Origin: a virus
Strand: one strand, 5' to 3'
DNA length: 39,527 nt
Virus record (IMG/VR): IMGVR_UViG_3300042301_002602
Location: 1-39,527 of that record
The notes beneath the pieces are model-generated. The model was not told the origin of the DNA. It saw nothing but the letters and a program-made list of their open reading frames with translations, and ran no database searches. The first letter of the stretch is position 1. The number at the start of each line of letters is the position of its first letter. A program made the translations under genes and the position numbers. This document shows positions 12,998-33,202 of this stretch, piece after piece.

Positions 12998-15900
12998 TTA
13001 GGTCATCATTATAGTAAATGGAAATGTTTGTGCAATATCTCTAATAATATCATTAGGATTGTTAGTTATATTATAAACAACATTTCTATCCACAGGTTCC
13101 GCAACCAAGGTAATCTTATTGTAAATTTTACTAATTAAACCAACATTATCCGGAGAAACATTTATATTAACTTCACCTATTATATCCACAGCATTAATTG
13201 TGAAAGTTTTCTTATTACTACTTACATAAATTTGTAATTCATTTCCAAAATTCCCTTCACCAACTTTTTCCTCAATAATTGTATTATTTGGACCAACAAC
13301 CGTTTTAACCGCAACCCAAGTCCATACAGTATTTGCGGAAAGAATATTCCAATTACCTGAAGATGGATTGATAGACACAACCATTTTTTCGGCACTTCCA
13401 ACTTGGTTAAATGTTGTGTTCGCCAATAGAACTACAGGTTGAGGTTGTGTATTAACATTAGGTGGTAATCCCGGAGGTGTTATTGGTGTGGATGGTGAAA
13501 TTTGTTGAGGGTTGTATGTAAAGTCCGTTGAACTTGCAGACGAACCATTTAACCCTGATAGGATTATTGGATTTTGTTGTGATGTTATAGTATTAACAGT
13601 CGGTACTACAACACTAATTGTAAAATTATTAATAATTGTAAAATTAGTTATGAATGTATTACTAATCGTAATTCCCGTTACTTGGTCTAAATTTTCACCT
13701 ATTATCGTTAATATAGTTCCACTAGTTCCTGTTAATGGAGAGAATGAGGTAATTGATGATGGTTCACAAGTATTGGGAACGGTAAATGTATTTAAATTAT
13801 TTGATGGATTAGTTTTTCCACTATTAATATCTTCAATCTTCTTAATTTGTTCCTCGTCATTTTTCTTAATATCAAATACTATTTGTTTATTTAATCCCGC
13901 AGAAACCGCAGTTTTAAACGCATTGTTAAATGTTTTTTCAAGTTCACTATATCGACTAATATTTTCATCAAAATAACCTTGGGATACATTAGGTACCGGC
14001 CATTCACAAACATAAAATTTAGTAATACCAAGTCCTGTGTCAGGATTAATTATTTGGTCCACTCTACTATTTAATCTTGAACTCATAAATCCGATAAAAG
14101 TTTTCACATCTTTAAATAACGCAATTGGTTGTGATGTTTTAGTTCCTTTTGAATCGGGCATTTCAACACAGGTGTATTTCTTTTGTTCAAATAAATTAAC
14201 ACTTTCACCATATAGATTAGTTGTTAACGTAACATTTGCAAAATTATTGTTAAACACATAAAATTTATCAGTATTAAATGTTTTTGCGTAACATATTAAA
14301 TAAACAATAACCTGTAAATATTCATCAGTGATTTCCGACTTTATCGCATCGACTAATTGTTGAGGTGTTAGATTTGTTGATGTTGCGGTTTCGGCGTCAC
14401 CCCAACTTTGGAACTCAGCTGATAAATTATTACTACAAGAATTAATTGTCGCACGAGTATTATCACCAGATTGTGTAATATAATCAGATTTATTGATATT
14501 TGTTATTGCCTTACCAGTAACACTATCTTTACTATTTTTAATAATACTTTCAACTTTAGTTAATAAATTTTGATTAACACTTTGTAAATAAGAATCAATT
14601 GAAGGTAAACTATATATACTTTGTCTAGTTCCTGTAAATGTTGTTTCAAACTTACCAGCAGTAATATTATGGTTTACTTCCGTTATAAAATACGGACCAT
14701 AAAACATAGGAACATTTCGCAAGTTAAAGTACATTGTAGGTTGTAATAATGCGTTTCCAAGACATTGAACCGTACATTGATAACTTCTATTTTTATAAAA
14801 ATTATATAGTCCGGTGTTTTGAGTTGTAACATTTCTACCCGAATATTGGTCAAACATATCTACTTGAGCTTGGAGAGCTTCACTAGTTGCTTTACCCGTA
14901 TCCATAGAAACTTGAATGGAATAAAACACGTTTTGATTTCTAATACCAGCATCAACATTAAATCCAACACACTTATTTGAAATACCCCAATCTTTCTTAT
15001 TTGCAATATCCTCAATTAAAGGGTTGTCTGAATATCTTCTCATTTCAAAAGCATCACTTCTGAATCTTGAGTTATTCTTTGGTAATTCTATGTGTTCTGA
15101 AGGTTTTCCAACAAAGAAACAAATCATTTTTGGACTAGACGCTCGGTAATCAACATTAAGGTATGTTCCCCACATTCTGTCACCAAATTCTAAACTTCCA
15201 TCACTCCTTGGTGTATTAACACCACTAACATCTTGAACATTATAAAAATTAACATATGACGGTAATGGCATTACGTTAAAATTATTTTTAATTAAAATGT
15301 CCGCCAAAAACGCAAACACACTTGTCTTCATATTTAAAGCGTTCTCATTAAGGACATTTTTTAATGAAAAAATATCTAAAATTATCGTATCCCCAATATT
15401 TCTTGACGCTCTATCTAAAAATAAAAAATCTTCAAATAATGTTTTTGTGGTATAATCGGAACCCGCAATCCACTTATCATTCAACGCCTTAAAAACTTCC
15501 CAGTTCTCAATTTTACTTTGTTCCCCATCAATAACACTTTTGATTACTTTTTCAGATATTTCTTGTTGTGGTTTTATATCTAACCTCACTTTTGTTAAAA
15601 TTAAATTCAAAAGGTTGTCTTGAAAATCTGAAGTTTTTACCAAATACTCTTGAAGTTTTTGTTTAAATTGTGTTGGTGTTATAGTTGGTGTTAATAACTT
15701 TTGAGTGGCATACATTTTAATTATCGGTGATAATAATCTTATATTATTTACCGAAAACTCAATATTATTATCAACGAAAAAGTCGGTAATATATGACCCG
15801 TTATTCGAATATTTCAAATTTTGTATTGTTGAAAACCCTACTTCAGTTTCTAACTCAAACCATTCTTTCGGATAATTTGTAATTGAAGCTGATAAACTCA

Positions 15901-18900
15901 CTGAGCCCGATTTTGTTGGCAAACTATTTGGTGTATATATATCAAATACAATTGGATTAACAATAGGATTATTACCACCTCCTTGAGCCAAATAGGAATC
16001 CATTACTCTTCTGTTATATTGTGAAGGGTTACCATATTTCAAAATAACATCATACTCTAAAAACGCCTTTATGGTACTAGTGAATGAAACTAATTGAGAA
16101 TTTCCAATGGAGTTAAAATATTCCTCTGAACTTATTGATTGTCGTTTCCCTTGAATTTCCATTAAATTTCTAAACAAATATTGGAAATTTTTATATAATC
16201 CATTAGGGTCAACAGGTGATTGTCCAATAGGAACAATAGCTTCAAAACCTAAATCAATATTTGCAATCGGTTTTGACCAATTCAAAAATTCTTGTTCTAA
16301 ATTATCCAATATTCTTTTATCAAAAACAGAAAAAATCTCTTCAATTTTAGAATATTCATCATTTAATAATAAATTAAATGGTGATTGTTTTGTCGTACCT
16401 GTTTCAATTTTAATTGGGTATGAATCCGGTTGAGGTTTGGATATTTGATTATTATCAAAATATCCATAATTTGATGTTGACCATAATAATCTAACCGAAC
16501 CATTATATATTGAAGGGTTATTTAAAAACTCACATATTGGTTGATTGTTATTCAAACACTCAATTTTAGTTTGATTGAACGACGTTCCAAATGATGGTAT
16601 TACATAATAGGTCGTCGAACTTGTGTTCTCACTTGGATTACATTTAGCCCCTTGTCCAACATCACTCCCTAATCCATTAGGAACAATAACTGACCAAGTT
16701 TCTATATTTTGATAGGTATCATCACTTGAGGTTTGAATATTTGAATCCGTAAAATTAAATATTTGAACACCATAATCTATACTTCTTTGTATTTCATTAT
16801 CAGTGTACTTTTCATATAAATCATATCCGTTATAAAACGCATTAAAATCATTTATAACTTTTGGATAAAACCCTGTTTGTAGTTGAACACTATTATTTGC
16901 AGAATCTTGTAATTTAATTTTTTTAGTTCCTTCAAAATTAAAAGTATATGTTTTAGTGTCGGAACTTAATATTGGGTCGAAGTTTTGTTTATAATTAAAA
17001 TTGTTCCAAGCACCGTCTAAAATATCTGTGTTAGTAGACTTATATCTTTTATATCGATGCCAAATAGAACCCATCTTTAATACCCAAGCATATGGCATTT
17101 TATGTATTGCACCATATTTCTTAAAACAAGATGCAATATAATCTAAATCACTAGATGCGTCTAATGTTTTATATTTTTCTTTTAATGTTGTTAAAGGTAA
17201 TGAATTGATAAATAAATACGCGGCCTGAACATAAGGATATTGGTCACCACTTCTCCAATTATCAACACCATTCATAATTGCATTAACGAAATAAGGTGTA
17301 TTCAACATTGATGTTGTTGTCTCAACAGGGACAGTATTATTTGGTGAAAAATAATTTACATAACCTTCAGTTGGAACAAATAGTGTTGGGTCTTTTCTTA
17401 AATTGTAAAATGCGGTTAAACCAATTACAGATACTTCTTGTGTTGGATTAGATACTCTAATATATGAAAAGTTAGTAACCGGGCGATTAGTTGTTGTGTT
17501 ATAAATGTCGTTAAAGTTTGAAATAACATCTCTATCTTCAAATACAGTTAAAACATTAGTTGTGTTATACACCGCATTTTTATTATTGGAAAGGTTGTTC
17601 CCCATATTATTTTTAACCCAAGATGGGTCGGTAAATGGATATGTGTCAATAATAATTGGTTCATTATTCGCACTCTTAACTAATTGTAATAACCCATCAG
17701 AATTCGTTTGTAATTGAGGTTCTTTACCTAAATCATTTAAACTTAAAATGTTAAATGAGTTATCTGTTAAAGCCTTTATATAAGGTGTTACAAAAAAATC
17801 TCTAATAAAATCTTGATAAGCCCTACCTGTACCCTCATTAGAGATTGTTCTTAAGAACGATTGGTAATTATCTGCGGTTATATCATAATTTTTAAGTTTT
17901 AATGATAAAAAAGGAGAATTATTACCTAAACCAGTTACAATATTACTAGCTTCAGAATTAACAATTAAAGTCAATAATTGGTTAATTTGATTATCATTTC
18001 CCCTAATAAAATTAGAATAATTTGAAGTTAAGAATTGTCTTTCCCATATTTCATAAAAAAACTTAATTTCTTCTTTGTTAATATAAGCAATACCATTCGA
18101 AGGATATTCAATAGCATTTAAATTAATAACATTAGTTGTATTTTGACTATCTATTGGAGGTTGAGCGGCAGGTGAAACAAATTTTTGGGACAACCCTTTC
18201 ATATATTCTTCAACAAACTCTATTTCAGGCCATATTTCATATGACCAACCTTTTGTTTGGTCTACGTATTTTGGGTCACCAGGATATTTTAATTGGAATC
18301 TTCCTTTTTTATCATCCGGAGTTTCAACAAAAAATTGAGGCCATGGATATACCGGTTCTTGACCATTAACCAATCCTTGATTTTCATTTTTCGCAATTTG
18401 AGAAATCACATAACTATTACGATTATCAACTGAAGGTGCTGATGCGGGATTATTTAATATTGTATTATATCTAATAGGATTGTATTTAACATCCCATGCT
18501 TTAGTGTGAACACCATCTAATAATCTAATAAAAGCCTCAGCTGACGCCATAATTACTGCGGTAATATTTCTAACCGTGGGAACAAATCCTAACCCTTGAC
18601 TTTGACTCTCAATTTTTTTTGCCAAATCAGAAGTTATCTCTGTCTCATATTCTAACAATTTCTTATTGGCCTCGGTTTCCATTTGGGATAATAATTTTTG
18701 GAAATCTGAAAACGTATAAACAGGAGGTGGGATAATATTGGTTCCGGTATTTAAAACTCTATTATCTGAAGCACTTTTTTCAAGAGTGGGTGTAAATTGT
18801 TGTGAAACTAAATCTGTTATTTTTTGAATATCGGTAGATGTTGGGTATAAATTTCCTGTTTGCGAAATTGTTGTTTTAACCAAATCTATATTAGACTCAG

Positions 18901-20281
18901 AAATTTGTTTTAAGTAAGTTTTTTCTGTTATAAGATTTTTAATTGGTGTTGGACTTTTTTTACCTAAAGTTGGGTTATTAGCTAATAAACTATTAAATCC
19001 TGAGGTATACCCACTAAGTAGACTATTAGCCTCTTGTCGTTTTGTAGGGTTTTTTAAATATTCCGATTTGAAAATATAAACAACATCATCACTTCCTTTT
19101 AATACTATAGGTTTAGGATTCATATAGGTATTAAACCATGAACTACTATCCGCATATATTGTATTAAAAAAATTTTTTAAAGTTTCTTTATAATTTCTAA
19201 TATTAGTTAATGGTTCTACTTTAACTTCAGGATATGACTTTTGAATAGTTTTCTCAAATTGTTGTAATAGGTTCATTAACTGCGACACTGTTAATTCCGG
19301 GAAGTTAACATCAATTAAACCTTTTGATTTGTATTCACTATAAACTTCAACAATCTTTTGATAACCTTTTTCACTAACAACTTCTGTAACTACATTATCG
19401 GTTGATATTGACGATTCTTTAGATATTACATTACTTTTGGATTGTGATTCAATTGTTCTATTACTTCCTCCTTCCGGTGAAGTTATTGACTTAGATATTT
19501 CAAAAGTTTTTGAATACATATGTGGTGTAGCAAATAAACTACCCATCGAAATTTCATTTAAAATGTTAAACTTATAACCTACAAATTCTAATTCAATAGT
19601 ATAATTACCACTGTATGTATTAAATCTTGCATTAAAGGTTCTTAAATTTAATTGATATCTAACCGCTTGACCATAATAACCCTTAAGTGTTAAGTAAAAT
19701 GGACAATATGGTAGATTGAAAAACGCGGCATATGGTGAATCATCACCAAGTTGAAATAAAGCTCTTCCTTGGATATCTTCAAGAACCATACTAACACTTG
19801 GAACAAATGCAGTATTTGTTTTAATACTAATACTTGTAATCCCTAATAGTCCGTTATCTATAGATTTATTTCCGGGTCTAGAAATAGTTTGTCTTAGGTA
19901 TGGTCTACTACCATTTGATGGAGAAACTAATTCCTGTTGTAATTGATTATCACCTAACCCATTTGTAGAATTTTTACCCGTCAGTTCATCATAATACCCT
20001 GTAGTTAAATTAGTTTTTTCAGTTGGTCTTAAAAAATTCATTTGTGCAACTGATACGGTTCTAGTATTATCACTTGGAACATCACCTACCGATAATTTTG
20101 TTCCTCGAACAATCTCGGCTTCAAGATTTGCATACATCATCAAATTTTCATGGTCGACAAGTCTCTCTTTTATATTACCAAATGAATCTATTGTTTTATT
20201 TGGGTCAACAACAACAATGTTTTGATAGTCAAATTCTACTAAAATATTACCACTTTTATCCCCTTGTAAATTACCTGCCAT
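12998..20281 (-). CDS. Giant baseplate hub-like structural protein with an IPT/TIG domain
   Basis: A 2427-residue protein, far larger than T4 hub proteins gp27 (391) or gp5 (575). Residues about 150-260 form a beta-rich domain with LTLKGYYGQAVRYQLNLRTF, a pattern I associate with structural proteins of far-T4 phages. Residues about 1849-1890 (NVPMFYGPYFITEVNHNITA, then KFETTFTGTR) resemble the strand end of hub proteins such as gp27 and P2 gpD. Residues about 2164-2260 look like an IPT/TIG Ig-like domain (SPLTGTSGTILTIIGENL). A further beta-rich domain closes the chain. It overlaps the gp53-like gene by 11 bases and follows the tube-cap-like gene. Hub function is inferred from position and the C-terminal motif; domain limits are approximate. 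Confidence 0.75.
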   Translation of the reverse strand: MAGNLQGDKSGNILVEFDYQNIVVVDPNKTIDSFGNIKERLVDHENLMMYANLEAEIVRGTKLSVGDVPSDNTRTVSVAQMNFLRPTEKTNLTTGYYDELTGKNSTNGLGDNQLQQELVSPSNGSRPYLRQTISRPGNKSIDNGLLGITSISIKTNTAFVPSVSMVLEDIQGRALFQLGDDSPYAAFFNLPYCPFYLTLKGYYGQAVRYQLNLRTFNARFNTYSGNYTIELEFVGYKFNILNEISMGSLFATPHMYSKTFEISKSITSPEGGSNRTIESQSKSNVISKESSISTDNVVTEVVSEKGYQKIVEVYSEYKSKGLIDVNFPELTVSQLMNLLQQFEKTIQKSYPEVKVEPLTNIRNYKETLKNFFNTIYADSSSWFNTYMNPKPIVLKGSDDVVYIFKSEYLKNPTKRQEANSLLSGYTSGFNSLLANNPTLGKKSPTPIKNLITEKTYLKQISESNIDLVKTTISQTGNLYPTSTDIQKITDLVSQQFTPTLEKSASDNRVLNTGTNIIPPPVYTFSDFQKLLSQMETEANKKLLEYETEITSDLAKKIESQSQGLGFVPTVRNITAVIMASAEAFIRLLDGVHTKAWDVKYNPIRYNTILNNPASAPSVDNRNSYVISQIAKNENQGLVNGQEPVYPWPQFFVETPDDKKGRFQLKYPGDPKYVDQTKGWSYEIWPEIEFVEEYMKGLSQKFVSPAAQPPIDSQNTTNVINLNAIEYPSNGIAYINKEEIKFFYEIWERQFLTSNYSNFIRGNDNQINQLLTLIVNSEASNIVTGLGNNSPFLSLKLKNYDITADNYQSFLRTISNEGTGRAYQDFIRDFFVTPYIKALTDNSFNILSLNDLGKEPQLQTNSDGLLQLVKSANNEPIIIDTYPFTDPSWVKNNMGNNLSNNKNAVYNTTNVLTVFEDRDVISNFNDIYNTTTNRPVTNFSYIRVSNPTQEVSVIGLTAFYNLRKDPTLFVPTEGYVNYFSPNNTVPVETTTSMLNTPYFVNAIMNGVDNWRSGDQYPYVQAAYLFINSLPLTTLKEKYKTLDASSDLDYIASCFKKYGAIHKMPYAWVLKMGSIWHRYKRYKSTNTDILDGAWNNFNYKQNFDPILSSDTKTYTFNFEGTKKIKLQDSANNSVQLQTGFYPKVINDFNAFYNGYDLYEKYTDNEIQRSIDYGVQIFNFTDSNIQTSSDDTYQNIETWSVIVPNGLGSDVGQGAKCNPSENTSSTTYYVIPSFGTSFNQTKIECLNNNQPICEFLNNPSIYNGSVRLLWSTSNYGYFDNNQISKPQPDSYPIKIETGTTKQSPFNLLLNDEYSKIEEIFSVFDKRILDNLEQEFLNWSKPIANIDLGFEAIVPIGQSPVDPNGLYKNFQYLFRNLMEIQGKRQSISSEEYFNSIGNSQLVSFTSTIKAFLEYDVILKYGNPSQYNRRVMDSYLAQGGGNNPIVNPIVFDIYTPNSLPTKSGSVSLSASITNYPKEWFELETEVGFSTIQNLKYSNNGSYITDFFVDNNIEFSVNNIRLLSPIIKMYATQKLLTPTITPTQFKQKLQEYLVKTSDFQDNLLNLILTKVRLDIKPQQEISEKVIKSVIDGEQSKIENWEVFKALNDKWIAGSDYTTKTLFEDFLFLDRASRNIGDTIILDIFSLKNVLNENALNMKTSVFAFLADILIKNNFNVMPLPSYVNFYNVQDVSGVNTPRSDGSLEFGDRMWGTYLNVDYRASSPKMICFFVGKPSEHIELPKNNSRFRSDAFEMRRYSDNPLIEDIANKKDWGISNKCVGFNVDAGIRNQNVFYSIQVSMDTGKATSEALQAQVDMFDQYSGRNVTTQNTGLYNFYKNRSYQCTVQCLGNALLQPTMYFNLRNVPMFYGPYFITEVNHNITAGKFETTFTGTRQSIYSLPSIDSYLQSVNQNLLTKVESIIKNSKDSVTGKAITNINKSDYITQSGDNTRATINSCSNNLSAEFQSWGDAETATSTNLTPQQLVDAIKSEITDEYLQVIVYLICYAKTFNTDKFYVFNNNFANVTLTTNLYGESVNLFEQKKYTCVEMPDSKGTKTSQPIALFKDVKTFIGFMSSRLNSRVDQIINPDTGLGITKFYVCEWPVPNVSQGYFDENISRYSELEKTFNNAFKTAVSAGLNKQIVFDIKKNDEEQIKKIEDINSGKTNPSNNLNTFTVPNTCEPSSITSFSPLTGTSGTILTIIGENLDQVTGITISNTFITNFTIINNFTISVVVPTVNTITSQQNPIILSGLNGSSASSTDFTYNPQQISPSTPITPPGLPPNVNTQPQPVVLLANTTFNQVGSAEKMVVSINPSSGNWNILSANTVWTWVAVKTVVGPNNTIIEEKVGEGNFGNELQIYVSSNKKTFTINAVDIIGEVNINVSPDNVGLISKIYNKITLVAEPVDRNVVYNITNNPNDIIRDIAQTFPFTIMMT

Positions 20282-20594
20282 AATAATAAAAATATTCGTC
20301 TAATGCCGATTTATAATCTTGTAATGAAGGTAGTAGAGGAAATGGAATTATCAATACTGCACCATCATATATATTATTTTCTAAACCCCCAAATTGAGGA
20401 TTTGCCTGTAAAATTAACCAACTAAAATATGGAGAATTATAAAATTCCTGTGAGACCACATCTAACCTACTTCTAGCAACTTTGTATATATAAGTTTTAT
20501 CCGTTGTCTTTTGAGCAATTCTTACAAAGGGGACTACAGTTTGTTCCCCATTAATTAAAAAATCACTATATCGATTCCAATATTGATACGCCAT
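20271..20594 (-). CDS. 53: Baseplate wedge protein gp53-like (LysM-like fold)
   Basis: A 107-residue protein. The segment RLDVVSQEFYNSPYFSWLIL followed by QANPQFGG and AVLIIPFP has the LysM-like pattern seen in gp53 and related baseplate proteins: strand, helix, W-x-I, ANP, then a hydrophobic strand. T4 gp53 is 196 residues, so this is a minimal version. gp53 clips gp6 and gp25 of neighbouring wedges and supports sheath and baseplate assembly. The stop of the preceding 1678-residue gene overlaps the start by one base and the following gene overlaps by 11, so the three are translationally coupled. The family match rests on the LysM-like motif and position. Confidence 0.75.
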   Translation of the reverse strand: MAYQYWNRYSDFLINGEQTVVPFVRIAQKTTDKTYIYKVARSRLDVVSQEFYNSPYFSWLILQANPQFGGLENNIYDGAVLIIPFPLLPSLQDYKSALDEYFYYYGR

Positions 20595-23500
20595 TAGTTA
20601 AGTTTTGCCTTTGATATTATTACATCTTGAGGACTTTCGTCATTCCAAGTTTTATTATTTGTATTTTGATTCTCAACCCACCCTAAACCTTTAATTAATT
20701 TTTCTTGACCTTCTTTACCCGCATCTTGAGTGGTATAATTAAATGTTCTTTTTTTCTTTAAACTATATGGTGTGAACTTCAAAAACTTCGTTAACTCTTT
20801 CTCTTTCGTATTGATAAATTCTTTAGTAATATTATTCTCTTTAATAAATTTAGATTTAGCGGATTCATCAGGTTTATTAGGATTAATCCAATATTCATCA
20901 AAAACAGTACTTATATCTTTTGCTCCACTACCCTTCAAATCCGTATTATTAATTATATTACCAATTAATGAAGTTTTAAATGATTCATATCTTTTAGAAT
21001 CCACAACATCGTCTGATACTATCATATAAACCCTTTTAAAACTAGAAATTTTAAAATCATCTTTGTTAAATGGTAGAAATACTTCATCCGTTGTGAGTTT
21101 ATAATTAGGACCAAAAACTAAATACCCACTATATTTTTGTTTATCTACTGAATATATAACATCAGATTCTGTATTAATTTTATCATTAAATTCCCTAATA
21201 TCATTATTAATTTTTATAACATCTTGTCTCAATTCTTCCAAAGTATTTGTTACATCTTTTGAACTACTATCAACTTCGATAGTACCTTCAGTTACATATG
21301 TTATAATTTTACCATCAGCGGTTTGATATCCATCGGTTCCAGTATTAGTTTTACTAGCGTAAGTTATAGTATTTATTCTACCAATATATGAAATATATGT
21401 TTGTTGTACATCAACCATACTATTTGTTATCACAGTTACAGCATTTTGAAACGTATTTCTTTTATTGTTAACATAATTAATATAATTTTCACGTACTTGT
21501 CTAATTAATTTTTTAGAAAAATTATTATTTGGATTAGAAATAAATTCAATAAATCCTTCATCCCCACTTTTAATATCTTTGATTAATTGTTTAAATATCT
21601 CATCAATTCGTTGTTCTAATTTCATTGGTTTACCAAATAAAATAGTTTCGTTTTCTTTTTGAATAGTAAATTTACCTTTTTGATAATTTCTCTCTGCCAT
21701 CCATTGTTGTCTAACAGCGTTATTATATTGGTTTGATACTTCTCTATTTTTATTAACAACATTTGTAAAATAATTTTGACTTTCCTCAACCATTTTATCC
21801 ATAATCGAACTATAACTAGTTGTTCCTGTTTGACTTGTACCACTAACTACTGTGGTTAGTATATCACCAATCGTTTTATTATTACTTTGACCATTATTTG
21901 GTGTTGCTTGATTGATTGTAGGAGGTTCAGCATTTGTTATTACACTTCTAAGAAAATCTTCATCAATTATTTTATAACTAGCGTCAGTAACATCTGCCCT
22001 ATCATCATAAATTTCAGTATTTGCATAATAATTAAACGTTAATGCGTTTTGTAATTTATCAACAGATTCTTTTAATCCACTACCACCTACAAAATTAAAA
22101 CTTAATGTTACCGTAGCAATCATTGGTTGTACACCAATACCTTCAGGGTTAAAATCTAACTCTTCATATTTTAACGATAAATTTTCAGGGATAATTTTAG
22201 TATTAAAAAAATCACCAACTCTTAATACTAACACGGGAGGTGCACCAAATGATGTATTAGTTGCGACACTATAATCAAGTTTTTGATTACCATTATCAAA
22301 TTTAACCGTTGGGATTGTGTCTCCAGGTCTCATACATTGTTGTAAGAATGTTAACCTTGAATTTAACCCTTCAGGTGTTATTGAATGAAATCCCGGTTGA
22401 AAAAATTTTAATTTATCTCTTAAATTATCATACACCAATGGACTTTCTTGTTTGATTGTTTCAAAATAATCACATTCTGTTAAGAATGACCTTAAAATTC
22501 TTTTAGTTATGTTGTCTTTAGGTGTTGCGGTAATTTGGGTCACCGGAACATCAACCGCTTTAACAACTTTACCATCGACAGAAACTGTTGTTTTTTTAGG
22601 TGGTAAAACTGGTGGTGGTGAACTTAAAGTCGAAGTTATCTTTGATATATAAGCTCTTCGACAAGCCATTGCATTTGTCGTATAAATTTCATTATTTACG
22701 GTTTGACTATCTCCTCCGTCATTGTCCGTACAATTGACTATCCCGTTAGCGAAAAATGTTTTAGTTTTTTCGTCGTAAGAGTCTGGCTGTGCGTTCTCAC
22801 CAAGAGCGGTTCCAGGAACAACAATTAGTCTTTTAGGAGAGCCATTAACATAGTTTGACAGTTTAGTATTACCTGTAATATAACTAATAGCACTATTAAT
22901 TCTTCTCTCCGCTAATTTTTTATTATAATCTAAAGTGGCTTTAGCCGAAGTAGTTGCATCTATCACAATTGTTACAGTACCCGTACCCTCTTTATCATTA
23001 TTAAATTGTTTAAACAATTCATCAATTAATTCATCAATTGCGGTCTTATTTTTTGTTATTACCGTATCAAAAAATAATGTCGTATCACCTGGACTTGCTT
23101 TAGATTGTTTTTTATAATTATCTATTGTTGGTTGTGACACATATGAATTATATAAATTACTAAAACTTTGATTAGGTGAATTTGGTTCAGGTTGATTATT
23201 ATTATAATAAAATGCTTTATTTACAAATTGTCCAAAATTATTTTGAGGGGCACTTCCACTACCATTAACCTCAGATACTTGGTTATCATTAGTTATATCA
23301 TTGAGAATATATCTGAGTTGTTCCCTACTTTCTTGTTTTGAAGTTATTGCTTCTTGATAATTAAATAAGTCATATGGAGATACTGTGTAGTATTTTTTTG
23401 CCAACTCATATAAATCATACTTCCTACAACCAGCAAAAAACGATTCTAATATGGAATCAATTCTAGTTTTATTTGTTTCATCACCAAGAACTTTATTTAC

Positions 23501-25630
23501 AATAACATTTAGTACCGATGGATGGTCAACAACTATCTTCCAAGTTAAACTACCACTTCTAGTTGTGTTTTTATAGGTAAAAATTGGTTCAGGTCTACCA
23601 AGAAATTCATTCGAAGTCCAACTTGCCCTAACATTTTCATCAAAAGTTAAACCATAAGGTGGAAACCACATAACTCTTCCTCCGTTTGGACCTCTTTCAC
23701 ATACCGGTAAATCTGACACAGTAAAACCCGGAGTACTTGAAGTCGCCCAAGCTAAGTTTTCAATTGAGAACATATATTTTTTAGCATACGCATTATTATT
23801 AGTTCCAATAATATTTGTGGAATCTTGTCCACCTTCTTGTTTGTTTGGTGCAATATTTAAATTATATGTTTTATCTAAAACTGAATATGAAAATCTTCTA
23901 CCTTCGGTAACAATTCCATCTGTCTTCTGTAAATCATTGTATTGTAAGTATGGTGTGTCTTTCGCAAAAACTCGACAATATTCAGTTCCAACTTCTTGAC
24001 CTATTGAACCAACGTAAGTTAATACTCTCGAACCTTTAGTTAATTCTTTATACCCATCATTAAAAACTTTAGATACTTGGTCAATAGCATTTCCAACATG
24101 TTGTAATCTTTTTCCACCTTGTGGTTGACTATCAATTATCCTTTGAGTTTCATCAAGTATAGAACCTTGTTTAAAAGTTCTTTCAGTTGATTCCGTTGTA
24201 TTATAAGATGAAGGTTTAAAATCCTCATCCTGATTAGTTACAACACCTCCAACACCAACTTTTTTACCAGCATTACCCCTATATTTAGTAGAAGTCCATG
24301 TAAATCCACCTTCAATACCTCCACCATTACTGTATGTTGGTCCGTTTGCACCTAATCTAATTTCTTTACTCGGCCCTTCATATAGTTGAGCAAGTTCTTG
24401 AGGACCATAAACAGGCGATTGTTGTTCATTTCCAAAAGAATCTACAGGTAATTCTCTACTTGGCGAGAATACTCTTGAAGGTTCTGATGTTGTTGAACCA
24501 ACATAAAAATTGGCATTATTTGTTTGGGTTCCGACAATCGCTCCTCCCAATCTATCTAATAATGTTCTATCGTAGTTTGGTTTATATCGATTAAAATTGA
24601 TATTTTTCCATAAGATAGACTTTTGTCCTCCTCCGGTATTATTATAAAAAATTTGAGACCCTGTTTTTCCCGCCCCCAATAAATTTGATACAAAATTACC
24701 TGCCGCCGCAATTGGGTTAGCGAGTAAGGATTGGGCAATTGTTGACGGTCTTGGAGGATTAATATTTGGGTCAAAATAAGAACCGGGTATTAACGAAAAA
24801 GGAAGTTCACTCCCCGCCAATTTAAGGGCGAAATCCGCCGCAGCAGTTATAGGGTTAGACGGGACAGTAATTTGATAGTTTGGTTCAATCAAAGGAACTC
24901 GACCTGTTAAAATATTAACAACATTGGTACTACTATTAATATTCAAAAAATTCGCTCTACCAATCGTTTCTCGAGCAATCGCTCTACCTATTCTTTCTTG
25001 AAATTCTCTCCTAAGGGTTCGAGCACCTAATCTGGCAATAAATGAGTCATCACTTAAACGACCATTACTACCCTGTGGATTTGGTGACAATAATATTGAT
25101 AATGGACTATATGACGATGAATTAAATGTTGTTGGATATGCCTGATTATTATATAAATTTGGAACTCCACCTGTTAATCCATTACTAATTGAGTCCGGTT
25201 GAACAATAGCTTCTCCGGCATCAATTAAATTTAAACCGTTATTTCCATACGCATTTAATGGTTGCCATGCGGGTGCAATCCCCGGAAATCCAACTTTAGC
25301 GGCAATTTGTGCGTCATCTAAAAGTTTTGCGTCTTGTTGTCCGGGACCATATTCACCTTTATTCGGTGCAATAACATTAACAGGTAAATCCGGTAATTGT
25401 TGGTACCCCCCATCATTACCCCACTTATTGAGAGGGTATAACTTATCGGCAAAAAATGGTGTATCAATTAGAGAATCGTCGCTATCAACAGGAACCAAAT
25501 CCGATTGAATTATCTCATAATTGGTTGGAGGAGTTACTTTAGTCGGAGATTTAACATAAGGCACTAAGTTTCTTGAAACTAGTTTTTTTCTAAATCCTTC
25601 CGTACTAATAAAATCTAATGGACTTCCCAT
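20594..25630 (-). CDS. Large baseplate/tube-cap protein with an OmpA-like insertion
   Basis: A 1678-residue structural protein. Residues about 655-705 (WFPPYGLTFDENVRASWTS, then GRPEPIFTYKNTTRSGSL) have the look of tube-initiator proteins such as T4 gp48/gp54, in which a GR-x-x-P turn precedes an R-x-x-S/T strand. Residues about 845-1000 resemble an OmpA-like peptidoglycan-binding domain: a strand-helix start (TTLFFDTVITKNKTAIDEL), then DYNKKLAERRINSAISYI, which parallels the N-x-x-L-S-x-x-R-A helix of OmpA. The N-terminal 600 residues are low in recognisable motifs; the C-terminal part has coiled-coil helices. It follows the tape measure and precedes gp53, as gp48/54 genes cluster in T4. Binding to peptidoglycan is inference. 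Confidence 0.72.
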   Translation of the reverse strand: MGSPLDFISTEGFRKKLVSRNLVPYVKSPTKVTPPTNYEIIQSDLVPVDSDDSLIDTPFFADKLYPLNKWGNDGGYQQLPDLPVNVIAPNKGEYGPGQQDAKLLDDAQIAAKVGFPGIAPAWQPLNAYGNNGLNLIDAGEAIVQPDSISNGLTGGVPNLYNNQAYPTTFNSSSYSPLSILLSPNPQGSNGRLSDDSFIARLGARTLRREFQERIGRAIARETIGRANFLNINSSTNVVNILTGRVPLIEPNYQITVPSNPITAAADFALKLAGSELPFSLIPGSYFDPNINPPRPSTIAQSLLANPIAAAGNFVSNLLGAGKTGSQIFYNNTGGGQKSILWKNINFNRYKPNYDRTLLDRLGGAIVGTQTNNANFYVGSTTSEPSRVFSPSRELPVDSFGNEQQSPVYGPQELAQLYEGPSKEIRLGANGPTYSNGGGIEGGFTWTSTKYRGNAGKKVGVGGVVTNQDEDFKPSSYNTTESTERTFKQGSILDETQRIIDSQPQGGKRLQHVGNAIDQVSKVFNDGYKELTKGSRVLTYVGSIGQEVGTEYCRVFAKDTPYLQYNDLQKTDGIVTEGRRFSYSVLDKTYNLNIAPNKQEGGQDSTNIIGTNNNAYAKKYMFSIENLAWATSSTPGFTVSDLPVCERGPNGGRVMWFPPYGLTFDENVRASWTSNEFLGRPEPIFTYKNTTRSGSLTWKIVVDHPSVLNVIVNKVLGDETNKTRIDSILESFFAGCRKYDLYELAKKYYTVSPYDLFNYQEAITSKQESREQLRYILNDITNDNQVSEVNGSGSAPQNNFGQFVNKAFYYNNNQPEPNSPNQSFSNLYNSYVSQPTIDNYKKQSKASPGDTTLFFDTVITKNKTAIDELIDELFKQFNNDKEGTGTVTIVIDATTSAKATLDYNKKLAERRINSAISYITGNTKLSNYVNGSPKRLIVVPGTALGENAQPDSYDEKTKTFFANGIVNCTDNDGGDSQTVNNEIYTTNAMACRRAYISKITSTLSSPPPVLPPKKTTVSVDGKVVKAVDVPVTQITATPKDNITKRILRSFLTECDYFETIKQESPLVYDNLRDKLKFFQPGFHSITPEGLNSRLTFLQQCMRPGDTIPTVKFDNGNQKLDYSVATNTSFGAPPVLVLRVGDFFNTKIIPENLSLKYEELDFNPEGIGVQPMIATVTLSFNFVGGSGLKESVDKLQNALTFNYYANTEIYDDRADVTDASYKIIDEDFLRSVITNAEPPTINQATPNNGQSNNKTIGDILTTVVSGTSQTGTTSYSSIMDKMVEESQNYFTNVVNKNREVSNQYNNAVRQQWMAERNYQKGKFTIQKENETILFGKPMKLEQRIDEIFKQLIKDIKSGDEGFIEFISNPNNNFSKKLIRQVRENYINYVNNKRNTFQNAVTVITNSMVDVQQTYISYIGRINTITYASKTNTGTDGYQTADGKIITYVTEGTIEVDSSSKDVTNTLEELRQDVIKINNDIREFNDKINTESDVIYSVDKQKYSGYLVFGPNYKLTTDEVFLPFNKDDFKISSFKRVYMIVSDDVVDSKRYESFKTSLIGNIINNTDLKGSGAKDISTVFDEYWINPNKPDESAKSKFIKENNITKEFINTKEKELTKFLKFTPYSLKKKRTFNYTTQDAGKEGQEKLIKGLGWVENQNTNNKTWNDESPQDVIISKAKLN

Positions 25631-25683: not shown

Positions 25684-27492
25684 TTATTTTGTTCTTTCAA
25701 GTTCTTTATCTAACTTAATACTTTTTTCTTTCATAAATCTTGAAAATTCCGGACCTTCAAATATAGTTTTAATTTGTTGTTCAGTCATACCTTGAACACC
25801 TCTAACCTCAACCACCAGTGTACCAAAATCAATTCTAGCATTAAGTTGTTTAGTTTCTATAGGGATTTGATTGGACATCTTATATGATGTTCCTGTTCCC
25901 ATAATTGCCGATGTAGATATTGGACGAACTTTATTAGTTGCGGGTTGGGGTTTGGGTATATTTTTAGCGATAGATGCGAATTCTGAACCTGTGAGTTCTT
26001 TTCTAAAAAATTTCTCTACATCACTACTACCTCTTAATTGTGTTGCCGTTTCTTTTAATATATCTTTAACAACTTTAACACTATCCTCACCTAAAATCTC
26101 AGCCTTTGTTAATAATGTCTGTTCAATATTAGTAAATTTACTTGCTATACTAGCAACACTAGCTTGTCCGGTTGAAACATCACTAACCAAATTAGTTAAA
26201 CTCTTAATAGCACTTGTTACATCCTCTCTAACATCTTCAGTTTTAACTTTTTGTTCAGAAATTGACGTAAATTTTTGAACAATATTTCGTAATCCTTCAA
26301 TATTTGTTCTAATTTCAGGTATCGATACTGCACCAAATTTTCCTGATGCTAACATAGCACTCATATCAGAAGCGATACTATTTAACGCAGTTAATTGACT
26401 TTTTTGAATATCTTCAAGAGTTTTTGGAGCGTTTTTCTGTTGTTCAATCAACTCATCAAACTCTTTTTGATTTAAACTTTGTAGGTCTTTTTTAGTACCA
26501 TCGTTTAATGTAACCTCATATTTACCACCCTTACCCATATTGGCAATATTCGCCAAATATTGTTTGTCTTCTTCATCTTTAAAAGTTAAACCGGCCATAC
26601 TTACTTCAGATAGTCTTCTATCTAAGTCTGCGGCGGCAATCGCCGATTTACTTAGAGAACCTGACGCTAAACCTGCGGCTTCCTCCATTTCTCTCAACAC
26701 TAAAACTCCTTGTCGATTTATTTGGAACGATTTAGTTTGTTCATCAAAATATGTATATTGTTCCCCTAATTTAGCTAAACTTTCTTGTAAACCCGCAGGG
26801 TTGGTTAAAGATTCGTTCATTAACGCAAATGGGTCTACCAAATTACCCGTTAAAACACCTAACCTTTGGAAAGTTGCCGCCATATTAATAGCATTTTCAG
26901 GTGTTAACATTTTGTCCGCAAAATCAAATGTTCTAGACATATCAAATCTTAACATAGACGCTTGTGCCGCCATTTTACTCAAACCTAAAACCCCTCCCTC
27001 AAACTGAAACCTATTCATTTTGTCCATATTGTTGGACACATTTGTCATTACTTGTTGAGCATTTAAACCAACACTTTGAATATATGTTATAGATTCTTCT
27101 AAAATAGGACCTATTTGAGATGTTTCATAACCAACATCTTTAAATTGATTGGTTAATTCCTTTGCTTCAATCCCTAATATTTTTGATGCGGCATATAATT
27201 GTCCAACAACTTCTTTGTTTTCAATCACATTTCTGTTAGACGCAAGAGCAATGTCACTTATGGTACTAACAACATCATCTAATGAACCACCAAGTTTTAA
27301 TACTTCAGAAGCGGTATTTGTAAAAGCGAGATTCATCTCTTGAATTCTACTTCTACCTAACGCAAAATTTTTGTTTAGAGTATTGGAACCCGCAACCATT
27401 AAATCTACCGCATCCCCAAGTGTTTGAATTGGGGATGTTATATCTTTTATTACTTGACCAATTTTGTCAACACCTTCATTCTCTGCCGCCAT
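25684..27492 (-). CDS. 29: Tail tape measure protein, gp29-like
   Basis: Sets tail length and is threaded through the tube. At 602 residues it is very close to T4 gp29 (590), implying a tail of similar length. It is rich in Ala, Ser, Leu and helices throughout, with TMP-like segments such as DDVVSTISDIALAS and AAGLASGSLSKSAIAAADLD. Helices near the C-terminus end in a basic tail (FMKEKSIKLDKELERTK). There is no obvious lytic or transmembrane domain. It follows the tube and chaperone genes, the standard order for contractile tails, and has its own candidate promoter motif (27504-27521). Identity rests on composition, length and position more than on a conserved motif. Confidence 0.82.
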   Translation of the reverse strand: MAAENEGVDKIGQVIKDITSPIQTLGDAVDLMVAGSNTLNKNFALGRSRIQEMNLAFTNTASEVLKLGGSLDDVVSTISDIALASNRNVIENKEVVGQLYAASKILGIEAKELTNQFKDVGYETSQIGPILEESITYIQSVGLNAQQVMTNVSNNMDKMNRFQFEGGVLGLSKMAAQASMLRFDMSRTFDFADKMLTPENAINMAATFQRLGVLTGNLVDPFALMNESLTNPAGLQESLAKLGEQYTYFDEQTKSFQINRQGVLVLREMEEAAGLASGSLSKSAIAAADLDRRLSEVSMAGLTFKDEEDKQYLANIANMGKGGKYEVTLNDGTKKDLQSLNQKEFDELIEQQKNAPKTLEDIQKSQLTALNSIASDMSAMLASGKFGAVSIPEIRTNIEGLRNIVQKFTSISEQKVKTEDVREDVTSAIKSLTNLVSDVSTGQASVASIASKFTNIEQTLLTKAEILGEDSVKVVKDILKETATQLRGSSDVEKFFRKELTGSEFASIAKNIPKPQPATNKVRPISTSAIMGTGTSYKMSNQIPIETKQLNARIDFGTLVVEVRGVQGMTEQQIKTIFEGPEFSRFMKEKSIKLDKELERTK

Positions 27493-27537: not shown

Positions 27538-27717
27538 TTACTCTTTACGATTCTCTTCAATCCATTTATCTAATAAGTATCTTCTAACAAATACCGGCAT
27601 TTGAAGAAAATCTTGGTAAGTAACTTTCATCAAATTATTTAAATAATAAAATTCGTCTATTTGATTTTTTCTATAATCAGAAGAAAGGACGAAAAAAGTC
27701 CACCCCAAACCCAACAT
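27538..27717 (-). CDS. Downstream (+1) frame of the tail assembly chaperone, probably expressed by frameshifting
   Basis: This frame is open from an ATG inside the chaperone gene (27717) to a stop at 27538, 59 codons in all, overlapping the chaperone's 3' end by 41 bases. Its C-terminal part (YQDFLQMPVFVRRYLLDKW, then IEENRKE) has the proline-arginine-helix pattern common in the T part of phage G/GT chaperones. It lies between tube and tape measure, where G/GT pairs sit. In the chaperone frame TTT TTT CGT (27689-27697) allows the second TTT codon to slip +1 onto TTC. The fusion would contain 243 residues of the first frame plus 50 of this one. An alternative is independent translation from ATG 27630 (30 residues). 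Function is inferred. Confidence 0.6.
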   Translation of the reverse strand: MLGLGWTFFVLSSDYRKNQIDEFYYLNNLMKVTYQDFLQMPVFVRRYLLDKWIEENRKE

Positions 27718-28420
27718 TCACTGTCAGCTTTTCTCCGGACGGGGCCATAATTGTTTTAGTCATATCTAATCTAGGTTCGTTCTCATTCATAAAATTTCTA
27801 ATGTATTTTGAATCAGCGATTGGCATTGATTCAACAAATTTAGAAATCATTGAAATATCTGTTGACCCATTAAGTTCAACAATTTCTTTTTGAAGTCTCC
27901 ATGTAATTTTTGGAACAATTCTACCTTGAGGGTATGTTTCACTAAGCCGACTAATTTCCATTATTTCACCATAATTAAGAGGTTTTAATTTAACAGATGT
28001 TTGAGATTTTGGTAACATTAATGTAAACGTTCCATCATCATTAGGTTGTTGTCCTTCTATAATTGGTAACTCATTTAATAACACTGTAGTCTTAAATGGT
28101 TTTTTAGTTTTTGGGTCTGTAAGATTTAATTCCATTTCAGGACCAAACGCCGTGTTTCTTAAAAAAATTAATATTGATTCAACATCACCTTCAATTAATT
28201 CTTCAACTCTAAAATCTGGTTCATAAATTTTTGAACGTAATAAATTAATTGTTAAGTCTTCCGAACCTCCCATTAGAATGTTTTCATCAGAAGCGGTTAA
28301 ATACCCTACTTTTAATGACTTTTTCTTATTTTTATAAAAGATTCCTTTTGATGGTAAGACCACCACATCATGTGGTAGTGTAAAATTTTGTTGTCCGTAT
28401 TGTATTGATTGTTCATTCAT
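27677..28420 (-). CDS. 26: Tail assembly chaperone / baseplate hub protein gp26-like
   Basis: A 247-residue protein. Its N-terminus has the gp26-family signature LPSKGIFYKNKKKSLKVGYL followed by ASDENIL, and then a small domain with long helices (IEGDVESILIFLRNTAFGP). A glutamate- and arginine-rich helical part follows after a short strand domain (about 135-160). T4 gp26 (208 residues) was classed as a hub component, and related proteins occupy the place of lambda gpG, the chaperone that coats the tape measure. Here the gene lies between tube and tape measure and ends in a slippery site with an overlapping second frame, supporting a chaperone role. A strong terminator ends four bases before its ATG, so expression probably depends on read-through. 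Confidence 0.75.
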   Translation of the reverse strand: MNEQSIQYGQQNFTLPHDVVVLPSKGIFYKNKKKSLKVGYLTASDENILMGGSEDLTINLLRSKIYEPDFRVEELIEGDVESILIFLRNTAFGPEMELNLTDPKTKKPFKTTVLLNELPIIEGQQPNDDGTFTLMLPKSQTSVKLKPLNYGEIMEISRLSETYPQGRIVPKITWRLQKEIVELNGSTDISMISKFVESMPIADSKYIRNFMNENEPRLDMTKTIMAPSGEKLTVNVGFGVDFFRPFF

Positions 28421-28503: not shown

Positions 28504-28992
28504 CTAGTAAACTAACACACATCTATCCATTCTTAATGTTGCTTGAATATCAGCTAAAGCATCCTCACTATATCCTAAAGAACCAAAATTAACATCAGTT
28601 AAAAATGTTCCATAAAGAATCCATTTCTCAACAACAACACCTGTCGGGTCTAACATTTCTAAATCAATATCTTTCTTATATCCCGCAGCATAACCCATAC
28701 GACCTGTAACTGATTCAGCATGTAAACGAACCCATTCCATAAGTGCTTGAGCCGCAGATGGTCCAATTGGGTCGCGGAATTTAACCGTAATTGGGTCCCA
28801 ATTAAATCTACCAGCGACAAATGTTGATGTATTTAAAAATTGGATTTCAGTTGAACCAATTTTTATACTTGGTCTAGCCGCAGTCTCAACAAACCATTCG
28901 TTAATCCCTAAACTTGATGGGAACCTTAGTATAAATCGATTCTTTCTTTTTGGCTCATAAGGAATCGGCATTTTCATTAATAAATCAGCCAT
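28504..28992 (-). CDS. 19: Tail tube protein, gp19-like
   Basis: The hexameric ring subunit of the inner tail tube. Its 162 residues match T4 gp19 (163) almost exactly. Typical features are KRKNRFILRFPSSLGINEWF near the start, the strand FNWDPITVKFRDPIGPSAAQ in the middle, and a C-terminal strand pair ending LADIQATLRMDRCVLVY. The gene has a candidate late promoter (29018-29034) and a strong terminator after it, fitting a highly expressed single-gene transcript. The HAD gene lies between it and the sheath; in T4 genes 18 and 19 are adjacent. Confidence 0.93.
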   Translation of the reverse strand: MADLLMKMPIPYEPKRKNRFILRFPSSLGINEWFVETAARPSIKIGSTEIQFLNTSTFVAGRFNWDPITVKFRDPIGPSAAQALMEWVRLHAESVTGRMGYAAGYKKDIDLEMLDPTGVVVEKWILYGTFLTDVNFGSLGYSEDALADIQATLRMDRCVLVY

Positions 28993-29962: not shown

Positions 29963-32900
29963 TTAAATGTTTTCAAACGAAGCACCTGTTGGTGTGATAA
30001 AGAATTCAATATCAATAAATTCTAATGCTTTCGTAGGTTTTAGGTAAATTTTTCCTGTTAATGTATTTCTATCCAAGTCTTCAGGTGATGATGAAACCGT
30101 TACACGGAAATCATAAAGACCTCTATCTCTTCTAATTGAATCTAGAATTGGATTAACACTATCTAAAAATTGTTGTCTAACGATTTGGTCATTTTGTTCA
30201 AATAATAATCTTACCGCTACCGCTGAAATTAATTTACGAGCTTGAAGTAACAATCTTCTTACATTTAATCTGTTAAGAGCCGTATCAGCAACTTGTAAAG
30301 TTTTATTACCCCAAATTACGGTTCCAACATCAGAGAAAGTTGCGATAGGGTTAATTCTACCTTGATACAATGTATCTCTATCTGTTTGTGTAAGTTTAAC
30401 TCTCGCTTTAATTGAATTAACAAGACCTCTTGTGTAACCCGCTGATGCGAACCAAGGGAATGATATATTATCTGTTAATGCTAAGTTTCTACAAACTTCA
30501 CCTGTTGGTGGTAAATAAATTTGAGTGTTATTTACAGTATCACGAGTTAATATCCAAGGGTAGTAAGTCGCAGTGTAATTAGAGTCAATTCCTGTGTTAT
30601 CTAAATTATCAACAGCTTCTTGAGGATATATTATAAGTTGAGGGTTTGTTGAATCCGGATTATACATCGGATAATCAGGTGTTGTTGCAATATATACTGA
30701 ATCCGCTCTTGAGAATTGAACCATATCAATAGCCTCTTCCACAAGATTTGAGTTATTTACATAGTCAATACTTGATGTTGCAAAAATATTAATATTTGTT
30801 GATTCAGGATTTGAAAATGTTAAAATACCAAGTAAATAAGCGTAATAATCAGTATTTGCAAAATCTTGATTGTTGTCTTGAACTGTAATTCTTTTAAACA
30901 AACCGTCTCCTGTTGCATTTGGATATCTTGATGATGATGACGCTCCTGCCAAGTATCCTGAAGCCCCTAATTGGAATCTATCTTCATTAGTTCTCCATTC
31001 TCTATATATATCCCATCCGTCAAAACCTCCCGCAAAACATACAGTATATTTTCTTGAATAAATAAAATAATATGGGTTTTCTTGTGTTTGTGGGTCATTT
31101 CTAAATTCTGCAACACCACATTCAAATGCGGTTTCTCCGCTTGATTTAGAACTAATTCCGATTGTTACAACAGTTGCACCTGAATCCATATGGAATCCTT
31201 TACTTACCACATTCCAAGGTCTTCCCTCAATTGCAGGATTAGTAACCCATCCTGAAGGAGTTTGTTTTCCTTTATAAGTTAAGAATGATTCATCAATACC
31301 ATATTGTGTTGAAAAACCTAAATAACTTCGTCTTACGATATCTCCTGCCGATTCTATAGGTCCTCCTCCAGCACTTGCTCCAAATGGTGGATTTGCAATT
31401 ACTTCACCAGGGAAATAATATTTTGTTTTAAATTTAGGATAAGGTGATGGGTATTCATCATAACTTAAATACTCTCTTTGAGTATATCCGTAAAATCCAC
31501 AAGGTAATGCGTCTATCGGTGCCTCATCAGCCATTTCAACCATTACGTATTTAGAAATCAACGCAAATTCTCCATTAGAAGAACCTATTTTTTTCGCGAT
31601 GAAATTATTTGACGCCGGGTCCATGTTACAATTTGTGAATTTTTCAATTACAATAGGATTTGCATCAGTATCAAAAAAGTTTCTAACAAATACATCAAAC
31701 GACATATTATTGAATGATAAATTCGCAATTGAAACTTTAACTTCAGTATTTGCAGAATCTCCATCAGAAATTGATATGAACTTAAATAATTTATAAACTT
31801 TATTACCTCTCAATTCTGAAACCAAATAAGGTGTTTCCGGTGACTGATATCTTTCTAAATTGTATGCGATTGATGATGATTCTTGACTTCTAGCACTCGG
31901 TAATGCGATTAAGTTACAATTCAATCCTCTCACATATCCTTGGTTATAACCATAATTTAAAGAGTTTAAATAATCTTCTTCAACATAAATAGGGACATCA
32001 AATCTTGATTTACCAAAATTATCAACACCTAAAACTTTTGTTAAATATTTTGATGAAGACGCTAACATTGAAGTCTCAAATGAGAATACTTCATTATCTT
32101 TTGTTACACCTGATAATAAAAATGTTGCATAAGGTGATTTCGCGATATCCGAATATTGTCCGGTACAAATTAATTGTAAATTGTTTGGTACCCAAGTAGA
32201 ATTATTATTGTAATCAATACCTACTTGATAAACAGGTCCGTGATTGATACTAGTTGAACTATTCTGATATAACGATATACCTCTTGACCGAATAGTTGCA
32301 ACCACCATATTATTGTATTCACTATACGCAGTCCCTGTAAATAAATAAGTATTACCTGTTACGGTTCCGGTAAATGTGTTTGGTGAAACAAGTGATAATG
32401 TTGATACAGAATAATCAAAAGAATAACCTGTATAATTTCCTGTCGAAGAACTGAAATTTTCAAATTCAAAATTCGCATAAAACCAAACATCGTTAGAGTC
32501 TGATGTTAAATCATTATCTATGAAATCATTAACACAACCATATGGATTTTGAATTGAACTATATTGAGAAGTTAATATACTATAATCTGTTTCGGGTATA
32601 GCTCCGTAAATTACTGCAGTATTCGCAGACAATATAGGAGAATTCATTATGTTACCTAAATAATTATTAAAATCATCTTGTAATGTTGATGTACTCCCGT
32701 CTTGTTGTCTATATTGAACGTTTAAATTTGCTAAAACTTGAGATGGTAAACCCGAACCAAATGTAACAACACCTGATGTTGAATTACCAGTAAATGTTGC
32801 GGAAAATGGTGTTCCAACTGAAGGATTACCAATTGTAGTTGGGTCAACATTTGCAGTAACACTAATAGACCAAGAAGGTCCTGCATCATATCCGGATAAA

Positions 32901-33202
32901 CCAAGAATTCTTGTCACAAATAATTGATTTGATTGTTGTAAATATGATTTAGCAATATATGCGGCCTCATATTTTGGTATTTGAGTATTTACGAATTTAA
33001 CGGGTTCTGTTCCACCGAAATACGCTTGGAACTCATCATAATTAGTTATAAAAATCGGTTCAAAGGCCGGTCCTTTAATTGTTTCTCCCACTAATCCTAA
33101 CGTAGTAACGCCCACACTTTGGGCTACGAAAGATAAGTCTGTTTCAGATGTATATACACCCGGAGATACGAATACTTTTTGGTTTGCTTGTGCTGTTGCC
33201 AT
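29963..33202 (-). CDS. 18: Tail sheath protein, gp18-like, enlarged
   Basis: The contractile outer tail protein. The N-terminus (QKVFVSPGVYTSETDLSFVA, then TTLGLVGETIKGPAF) and the C-terminal 200 residues are typical sheath. The latter includes ALTDNISFPWFASAGYTRGL, VGTVIWGNKTL, LNRLNVRRLLLQARKLI and a final LEFIDIEFFITPTGAS. Length is 1079 residues against 659 in T4. The extra mass is mainly in the middle: about residues 120-440 are rich in Ser, Thr, Asn and Tyr strands with few charged residues, as in exposed protrusion domains. The gene has its own candidate promoter (33227-33242) and a terminator after it. The family call is firm; the role of the added domains is unknown. Confidence 0.93.
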   Translation of the reverse strand: MATAQANQKVFVSPGVYTSETDLSFVAQSVGVTTLGLVGETIKGPAFEPIFITNYDEFQAYFGGTEPVKFVNTQIPKYEAAYIAKSYLQQSNQLFVTRILGLSGYDAGPSWSISVTANVDPTTIGNPSVGTPFSATFTGNSTSGVVTFGSGLPSQVLANLNVQYRQQDGSTSTLQDDFNNYLGNIMNSPILSANTAVIYGAIPETDYSILTSQYSSIQNPYGCVNDFIDNDLTSDSNDVWFYANFEFENFSSSTGNYTGYSFDYSVSTLSLVSPNTFTGTVTGNTYLFTGTAYSEYNNMVVATIRSRGISLYQNSSTSINHGPVYQVGIDYNNNSTWVPNNLQLICTGQYSDIAKSPYATFLLSGVTKDNEVFSFETSMLASSSKYLTKVLGVDNFGKSRFDVPIYVEEDYLNSLNYGYNQGYVRGLNCNLIALPSARSQESSSIAYNLERYQSPETPYLVSELRGNKVYKLFKFISISDGDSANTEVKVSIANLSFNNMSFDVFVRNFFDTDANPIVIEKFTNCNMDPASNNFIAKKIGSSNGEFALISKYVMVEMADEAPIDALPCGFYGYTQREYLSYDEYPSPYPKFKTKYYFPGEVIANPPFGASAGGGPIESAGDIVRRSYLGFSTQYGIDESFLTYKGKQTPSGWVTNPAIEGRPWNVVSKGFHMDSGATVVTIGISSKSSGETAFECGVAEFRNDPQTQENPYYFIYSRKYTVCFAGGFDGWDIYREWRTNEDRFQLGASGYLAGASSSSRYPNATGDGLFKRITVQDNNQDFANTDYYAYLLGILTFSNPESTNINIFATSSIDYVNNSNLVEEAIDMVQFSRADSVYIATTPDYPMYNPDSTNPQLIIYPQEAVDNLDNTGIDSNYTATYYPWILTRDTVNNTQIYLPPTGEVCRNLALTDNISFPWFASAGYTRGLVNSIKARVKLTQTDRDTLYQGRINPIATFSDVGTVIWGNKTLQVADTALNRLNVRRLLLQARKLISAVAVRLLFEQNDQIVRQQFLDSVNPILDSIRRDRGLYDFRVTVSSSPEDLDRNTLTGKIYLKPTKALEFIDIEFFITPTGASFENI

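Follow-up and report, generated by a model that had tools for sequence, protein, structure and literature searches.

Among the closest described systems is the gpG/gpGT chaperone pair of phage lambda. Its single gene lies between the tail tube and tape measure genes and yields a shorter and a longer protein by a shift near the end of the short reading frame. In lambda, G coats the tape measure protein and G-T recruits the tube protein (PMC5009743). The same 2016 review treated T4 as the exception to an otherwise general tail-chaperone frameshift, and it reported that a likely +1 tail-chaperone shift had been proposed for the archaeal myovirus HSTV-2 (PMC5009743). The tail assembly chaperones of T4-like phages were identified by Vladimirov, Gautam and Davidson in 2022, according to the citing papers PMC10885494 and PMC12846349. 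The first of these papers also states that in some T4-like phages the frameshift is replaced by two genes, one short and the other longer and fused, and the second cites poly-T -1 signals in T4-like phages. In 2010, gp51 was reported to be essential, its function being unknown at that time.

We analysed a linear IMG/VR record of 39,527 nucleotides (IMGVR_UViG_3300042301_002602; hereafter the window), in which an earlier note had proposed a +1 programmed frameshift in a G/GT-type tail chaperone. Conservation, profile links and weak fold matches supported this proposal, which is a reading of sequence data. The locus resembles lambda gpG/gpGT in its neighbourhood, in its predicted short and long forms from one gene and in the placement of the proposed shift near the end of the short frame. 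However, lambda uses a -1 heptamer, whereas the window phage would shift by +1 on TTT TTT CGY in a protein of the gp26 family. In T4, gp26 matches G, and gp51 covers both G and T within a single frame; T4 has two paralogous genes, as opposed to one gene with a proposed frameshift in the window phage. The cyanophages, KVP40 and Atu_ph07 have a shift-like site at the same FF codons and a profile-related T segment, but their site is a canonical -1 heptamer, T TTT TTC, and their coding frame is -1. Bacterial prfB shares the +1 direction and the slow A site, although this site is a stop codon in prfB and a rare Arg codon or TGG in the +1 phages found here. Listeria PSA also uses +1 shifts, but in the capsid and tail shaft genes and on a proline codon, and the +1 tail chaperone of HSTV-2 belongs to an archaeal virus.

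The earlier note had called a +1 event in a T4-like phage notable. Chaperones of T4-like phages had already been published, according to the two citing papers named above, and a +1 shift had already been proposed for HSTV-2. The apparent novelty lies in the +1 route of the gp26/gp51 family, in its conserved signal and in its breadth.

Reading frames at the end of the gp26-like gene

The features of the junction, in the direction of transcription, are as follows.

28504 to 28992, minus strand: upstream gene, tail tube of the gp19 type (phrog_4542, tail tube, 3.8e-27)
27677 to 28420, minus strand: zero-frame open reading frame of 247 aa, putative short chaperone (G / TAC-N) of the gp26 family, from PF12322, phrog_150 and an AF2 model
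27715 to 27717, minus strand: ATG in the +1 frame ahead of the slip site, the rival independent start
27703 to 27706, minus strand: GGGG, five bases upstream of the slip site, which may act as an internal Shine-Dalgarno-like stimulator
27689 to 27697, minus strand: candidate slip site TTT TTT CGT, with the P-site Phe codon or codons ahead of a rare Arg codon, from invariance in 38 unique genes and codon usage
27677 to 27679, minus strand: zero-frame stop TGA ending the short product, read from the sequence
27538 to 27693, minus strand: +1 extension (putative T domain, gp51-like) of about 50 codons plus the stop TAA, from the open frame, pN/pS and a stepwise profile link
25684 to 27492, minus strand: downstream gene of 602 aa, presumed tape measure from its position only

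The gp26-like gene ended where the earlier note had placed its end, with TGA at 27679-27677, and its 3' end reads GAC TTT TTT CGT CCT TTC TTC TGA; in a few relatives the stop is TAA instead of TGA. The +1 frame was open from ATG 27717-27715 across this stop to TAA 27540-27538, matching the extent proposed before, and the first ATG past the slip was the one at 27630 named in the note. The -1 frame closed about 12 codons past the slip in the window and 6 or 12 codons beyond the zero-frame stop in the readable close relatives, leaving a useful extension in +1 only, as had been claimed. No -1 heptamer X XXY YYZ with an open -1 frame was found in the window gene. The probability of 45 open +1 codons arising by chance at the window composition was 0.005.

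The gp26-like gene scored 30.3 bits against PF12322 (curated cut-off of 24.5) and matched the baseplate hub family phrog_150 at 1.9e-11. The phrog_150 score of the fused product was 51.0 bits versus 44.9 unfused, with the match extending into the +1 segment. The gene sits between the tail tube and tape measure genes, the neighbourhood described in the earlier note, with the tube recognised by phrog_4542 and the window tape measure assigned by position only. The presumed tape measure showed no family match naming tape measure and no similarity to the immuto tape measure protein; in immuto and LIS04 themselves, the next large gene carries a tape measure annotation. Two very large open reading frames in the tail region of the window, at 12998-20281 and 20594-25630 (2427 and 1678 aa), had no Pfam match, and the tail sheath encoded at 29963-33202 has 1079 aa, with recognised sheath domains near the C-terminus only.

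Slip site, relatives and selection on the extension

The slip run (27697-27691) lies four codons ahead of TGA, confirming TTT TTT CGT shortly before the zero-frame stop. The string TTTTTTCGYCC occurs once in the window versus 0.07 expected. Both TTT codons, the next CCT TTC and the upstream GGG were invariant at synonymous sites in 38 unique genes, of which the mean synonymous diversity was 0.31, indicating conservation of the slip region far beyond chance; dual coding would account for part of the conservation past the slip. In all unique window-group genes, TTT TTT was followed only by CGT or CGC, codons that the phage uses at 3.0 and 0.2 per 1000, with AGA at 25.1. GGGG was invariant in 17/17 unique window-group contexts, partial in the L082 group and absent in SP-15 and GXN1. 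RNA structure around the slip did not exceed that of shuffled sequences (z of 0.30), and no tRNA genes were found within the window.

An IMG/VR search gave 80 close relatives at 77-100% identity. All 80 shared TTT TTT CG[TC] CCT TTC TT[CT] T[GA]A, and their +1 frame was open and encoded the same protein, one relative being cut by a contig end. Five distant genomes (24-30% identity), including Flavobacterium immuto, Listeria LIS04, Streptococcus GXN1, Bacillus SP-15 and a 484-kb phage, also had a +1 frame open across the stop and an FF- or FL-type site, and the +1 layout was found in Mel-JY01 and RM378 as well. Two more searches added about 100 loci, in which the common form was TTT [CTT, CTA or TTT] TGG CCT GAC. 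The slip variants were TTT CTT TGG in the L082 group, GAA TTC TTT CGT in L084 and TTC TTT TGG in L167-L177. Neither codon of the FF pair re-pairs well in all relatives, with TTC TTT TGG and TTT CTA TGG favouring different ones. Taken together, these sites are consistent with a conserved slippery sequence compatible with +1 shifting, TTT TTT CGY in the window group and related FF sites elsewhere.

The earlier note held that relatives lacking the T run or with stops in the +1 frame would speak against the shift. The close relatives all retained TTT TTT C and the open frame (80/80). The distant +1 relatives kept the open frame and had a variant FF slip; L176 and L182 were exceptions. In contig sets collected by the motif only, a +1 extension of at least 45 codons was present in 116/116 and 117/117 testable cases (233/233), representing 98 and 92 distinct sequences that partially overlap with the earlier loci.

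The pN/pS of the extension past the stop was 0.158 in the +1 frame, and 1.87 and 0.84 in the other two frames. Upstream of the slip, the +1 frame had a pN/pS of 1.49. The extension in the L082 group showed a pN/pS of 0.328 in +1. These ratios indicate that the extension evolves as a protein in the +1 frame only, and they point to a conserved out-of-frame extension under protein-level selection across the stop.

Links to T4 gp51 and to the chaperone fold

The first 200 residues of T4 gp51 matched the gp26 family, and gp51 also gave an end-to-end match to phrog_150; T4 gp26, in contrast, matched the G part only. In the T4 record (L193:3803-5229), these two genes are paralogues in divergent orientation, and gp51 combines a gp26 domain and a T domain in one frame. 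T4 alone among 13 records had two separate full G-type genes, with one G gene in each of the others; the second match in P-SSM2 was to a T piece only.

The T parts were connected by a chain of profile comparisons, from the window to the L082 group (91%), from the L082 group to the cyanophages (85%) and from the cyanophages to T4 gp51 (91%), with every step scoring well clear of 60 column-shuffled decoys. The direct comparison of the window T part with T4 gp51 was not significant, and hmmscan gave no direct match between the T segment and phrog_634, the family of the gp51 C-terminus, the two being linked via the L082 and cyanophage profiles. By this stepwise link, the T segment would correspond to the C-terminus of T4 gp51, which agrees with the T-like nature ascribed to the extension in the earlier note.

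In the cyanophage-type loci, T TTT TTC was invariant at the same FF codons (80/80), and the -1 frame had a protein-like pN/pS of 0.087. KVP40 and Atu_ph07 carried the same heptamer. The heptamer of cyanophage-type gp26 (L194-L273; L188:3193-3199) lies two codons ahead of the stop, with the annotated gp51 in the -1 frame. A conserved ATG is also present in these loci, so that a -1 fusion and a separate start are both possible there.

In the tree of G proteins, the +1 rows fell on one side along with two long -1 branches, the deep order being unsure because of the long branches. In L176 and L182, the +1 frame is closed and the T domain is a separate open reading frame with its own ATG just past the stop of the hub gene; both loci were nested within the +1 clade. 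The frameshift therefore seems to have been lost there, and a covalent G-T fusion is not indispensable everywhere.

The AF2 model of the zero-frame product, which covers the short form only, had a pLDDT of 87. Its best re-aligned PDB match was YqbN (3klu, Z of 5.5), ahead of the HK97 tail assembly chaperone (2ob9, Z of 5.2) and a next row at 3.1. The match is modest, both Z values being below 8 and Foldseek on its own giving no significant match (E value of 2.9 for 3klu). A sequence search against solved structures found no relative, and in a viral structure library the model matched SP-15 and other proteins annotated as hub. The fold matches lend modest support to a chaperone identity for the predicted structure.

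Alternatives and the proposed shift

The best-surviving alternative, which we nevertheless consider unlikely, is that T is a separate small gene read from ATG 27717 (59 aa) or ATG 27630 (30 aa), possibly through translational coupling. In 80/81 window-group rows, the frame stays open from ATG 27717 into the extension, so the window group by itself does not discriminate against a separate gene; true separate T reading frames with their own ATG occur in L176 and L182, and gp51 is annotated as a separate gene in the cyanophage and KVP40 records. However, no ATG, GTG or TTG precedes the slip in the +1 frame in 31/181 loci, and independent initiation is therefore not the general explanation. Even within the window group, a TAG in L005 cuts the upstream ATG off from the slip. 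L094 and L107 offer no start until 46 codons past the slip, though the residues before it are conserved, which excludes ordinary independent initiation at these two loci. A start at 27630 would skip the conserved VLSSDYRKNQIDEFYYLN, and a product made solely from this ATG is unlikely because the codons between the slip and the ATG are conserved as +1 protein. Frameshifting would account for the loci with no start, L094, L107 and L005 alike.

The same frame could also be reached by a -2 frameshift or by RNA polymerase slippage on the T run, which has six Ts in the window and seven in L005. Six Ts are short for slippage. Furthermore, the L082 group, L084 and L167-L177 have no long homopolymer, and -2 re-pairing is poor in them. 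Given this lack of conservation of the T run, we discounted both routes and regard them as highly improbable. A sequencing error or a decayed gene with a functionless extension could likewise disrupt a frame near the gene end, but such an artefact is effectively refuted by the recurrence of the layout in isolated phages and in considerably more than a hundred independent assemblies, by the purifying selection seen in pN/pS and by the motif-only contig sets.

We thus favour the +1 shift, and it is very likely that one gene and one mRNA give rise to two tail assembly chaperones in this way. The conserved site, the conserved +1 coding and the homology of both parts, that of T through intermediates, are evident in the aligned loci; the shift itself, how efficiently it occurs, which codon slips and what the products do in assembly are inferred. 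Most ribosomes would terminate at TGA, yielding the short form of 247 aa (G). Some would stall with the rare CGY codon in the A site, and the P-site tRNA-Phe would then advance by one base, re-pairing with UUC in place of UUU, which adds a G-C pair at the third position. Alternatively, the slip may occur from UUU to UUU one codon earlier. A slow A site combined with re-pairing of P-site UUU as UUC is a plausible setting for +1 shifting. The shifted ribosomes would continue in the +1 frame to TAA 27538, producing the 293-aa long form (G-T). By analogy with lambda gpG/gpGT, many G molecules may coat the tape measure protein and a few G-T molecules may recruit the tube protein.

One chaperone family probably contains four routes to the long form or the T part, all acting at one position of the protein. 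A broad clade including the window phage would use a +1 shift, the cyanophages and vibriophages a -1 shift, a few phages inside the +1 clade a separate T gene, and T4 a duplication with in-frame fusion. If this is true, the +1 version would be a recoding site driven by a rare codon and without RNA structure. With +1 widespread in T4-related phages and the -1 and duplicated forms in sister groups, the family would form a natural series that bears on how recoding arises, changes direction and is lost, and the finding would also bear on gp51. The current annotation of several such phages drops or truncates the T domain, as public records do for the T frame of immuto, SP-15, LIS04 and GXN1 (L082-L085).
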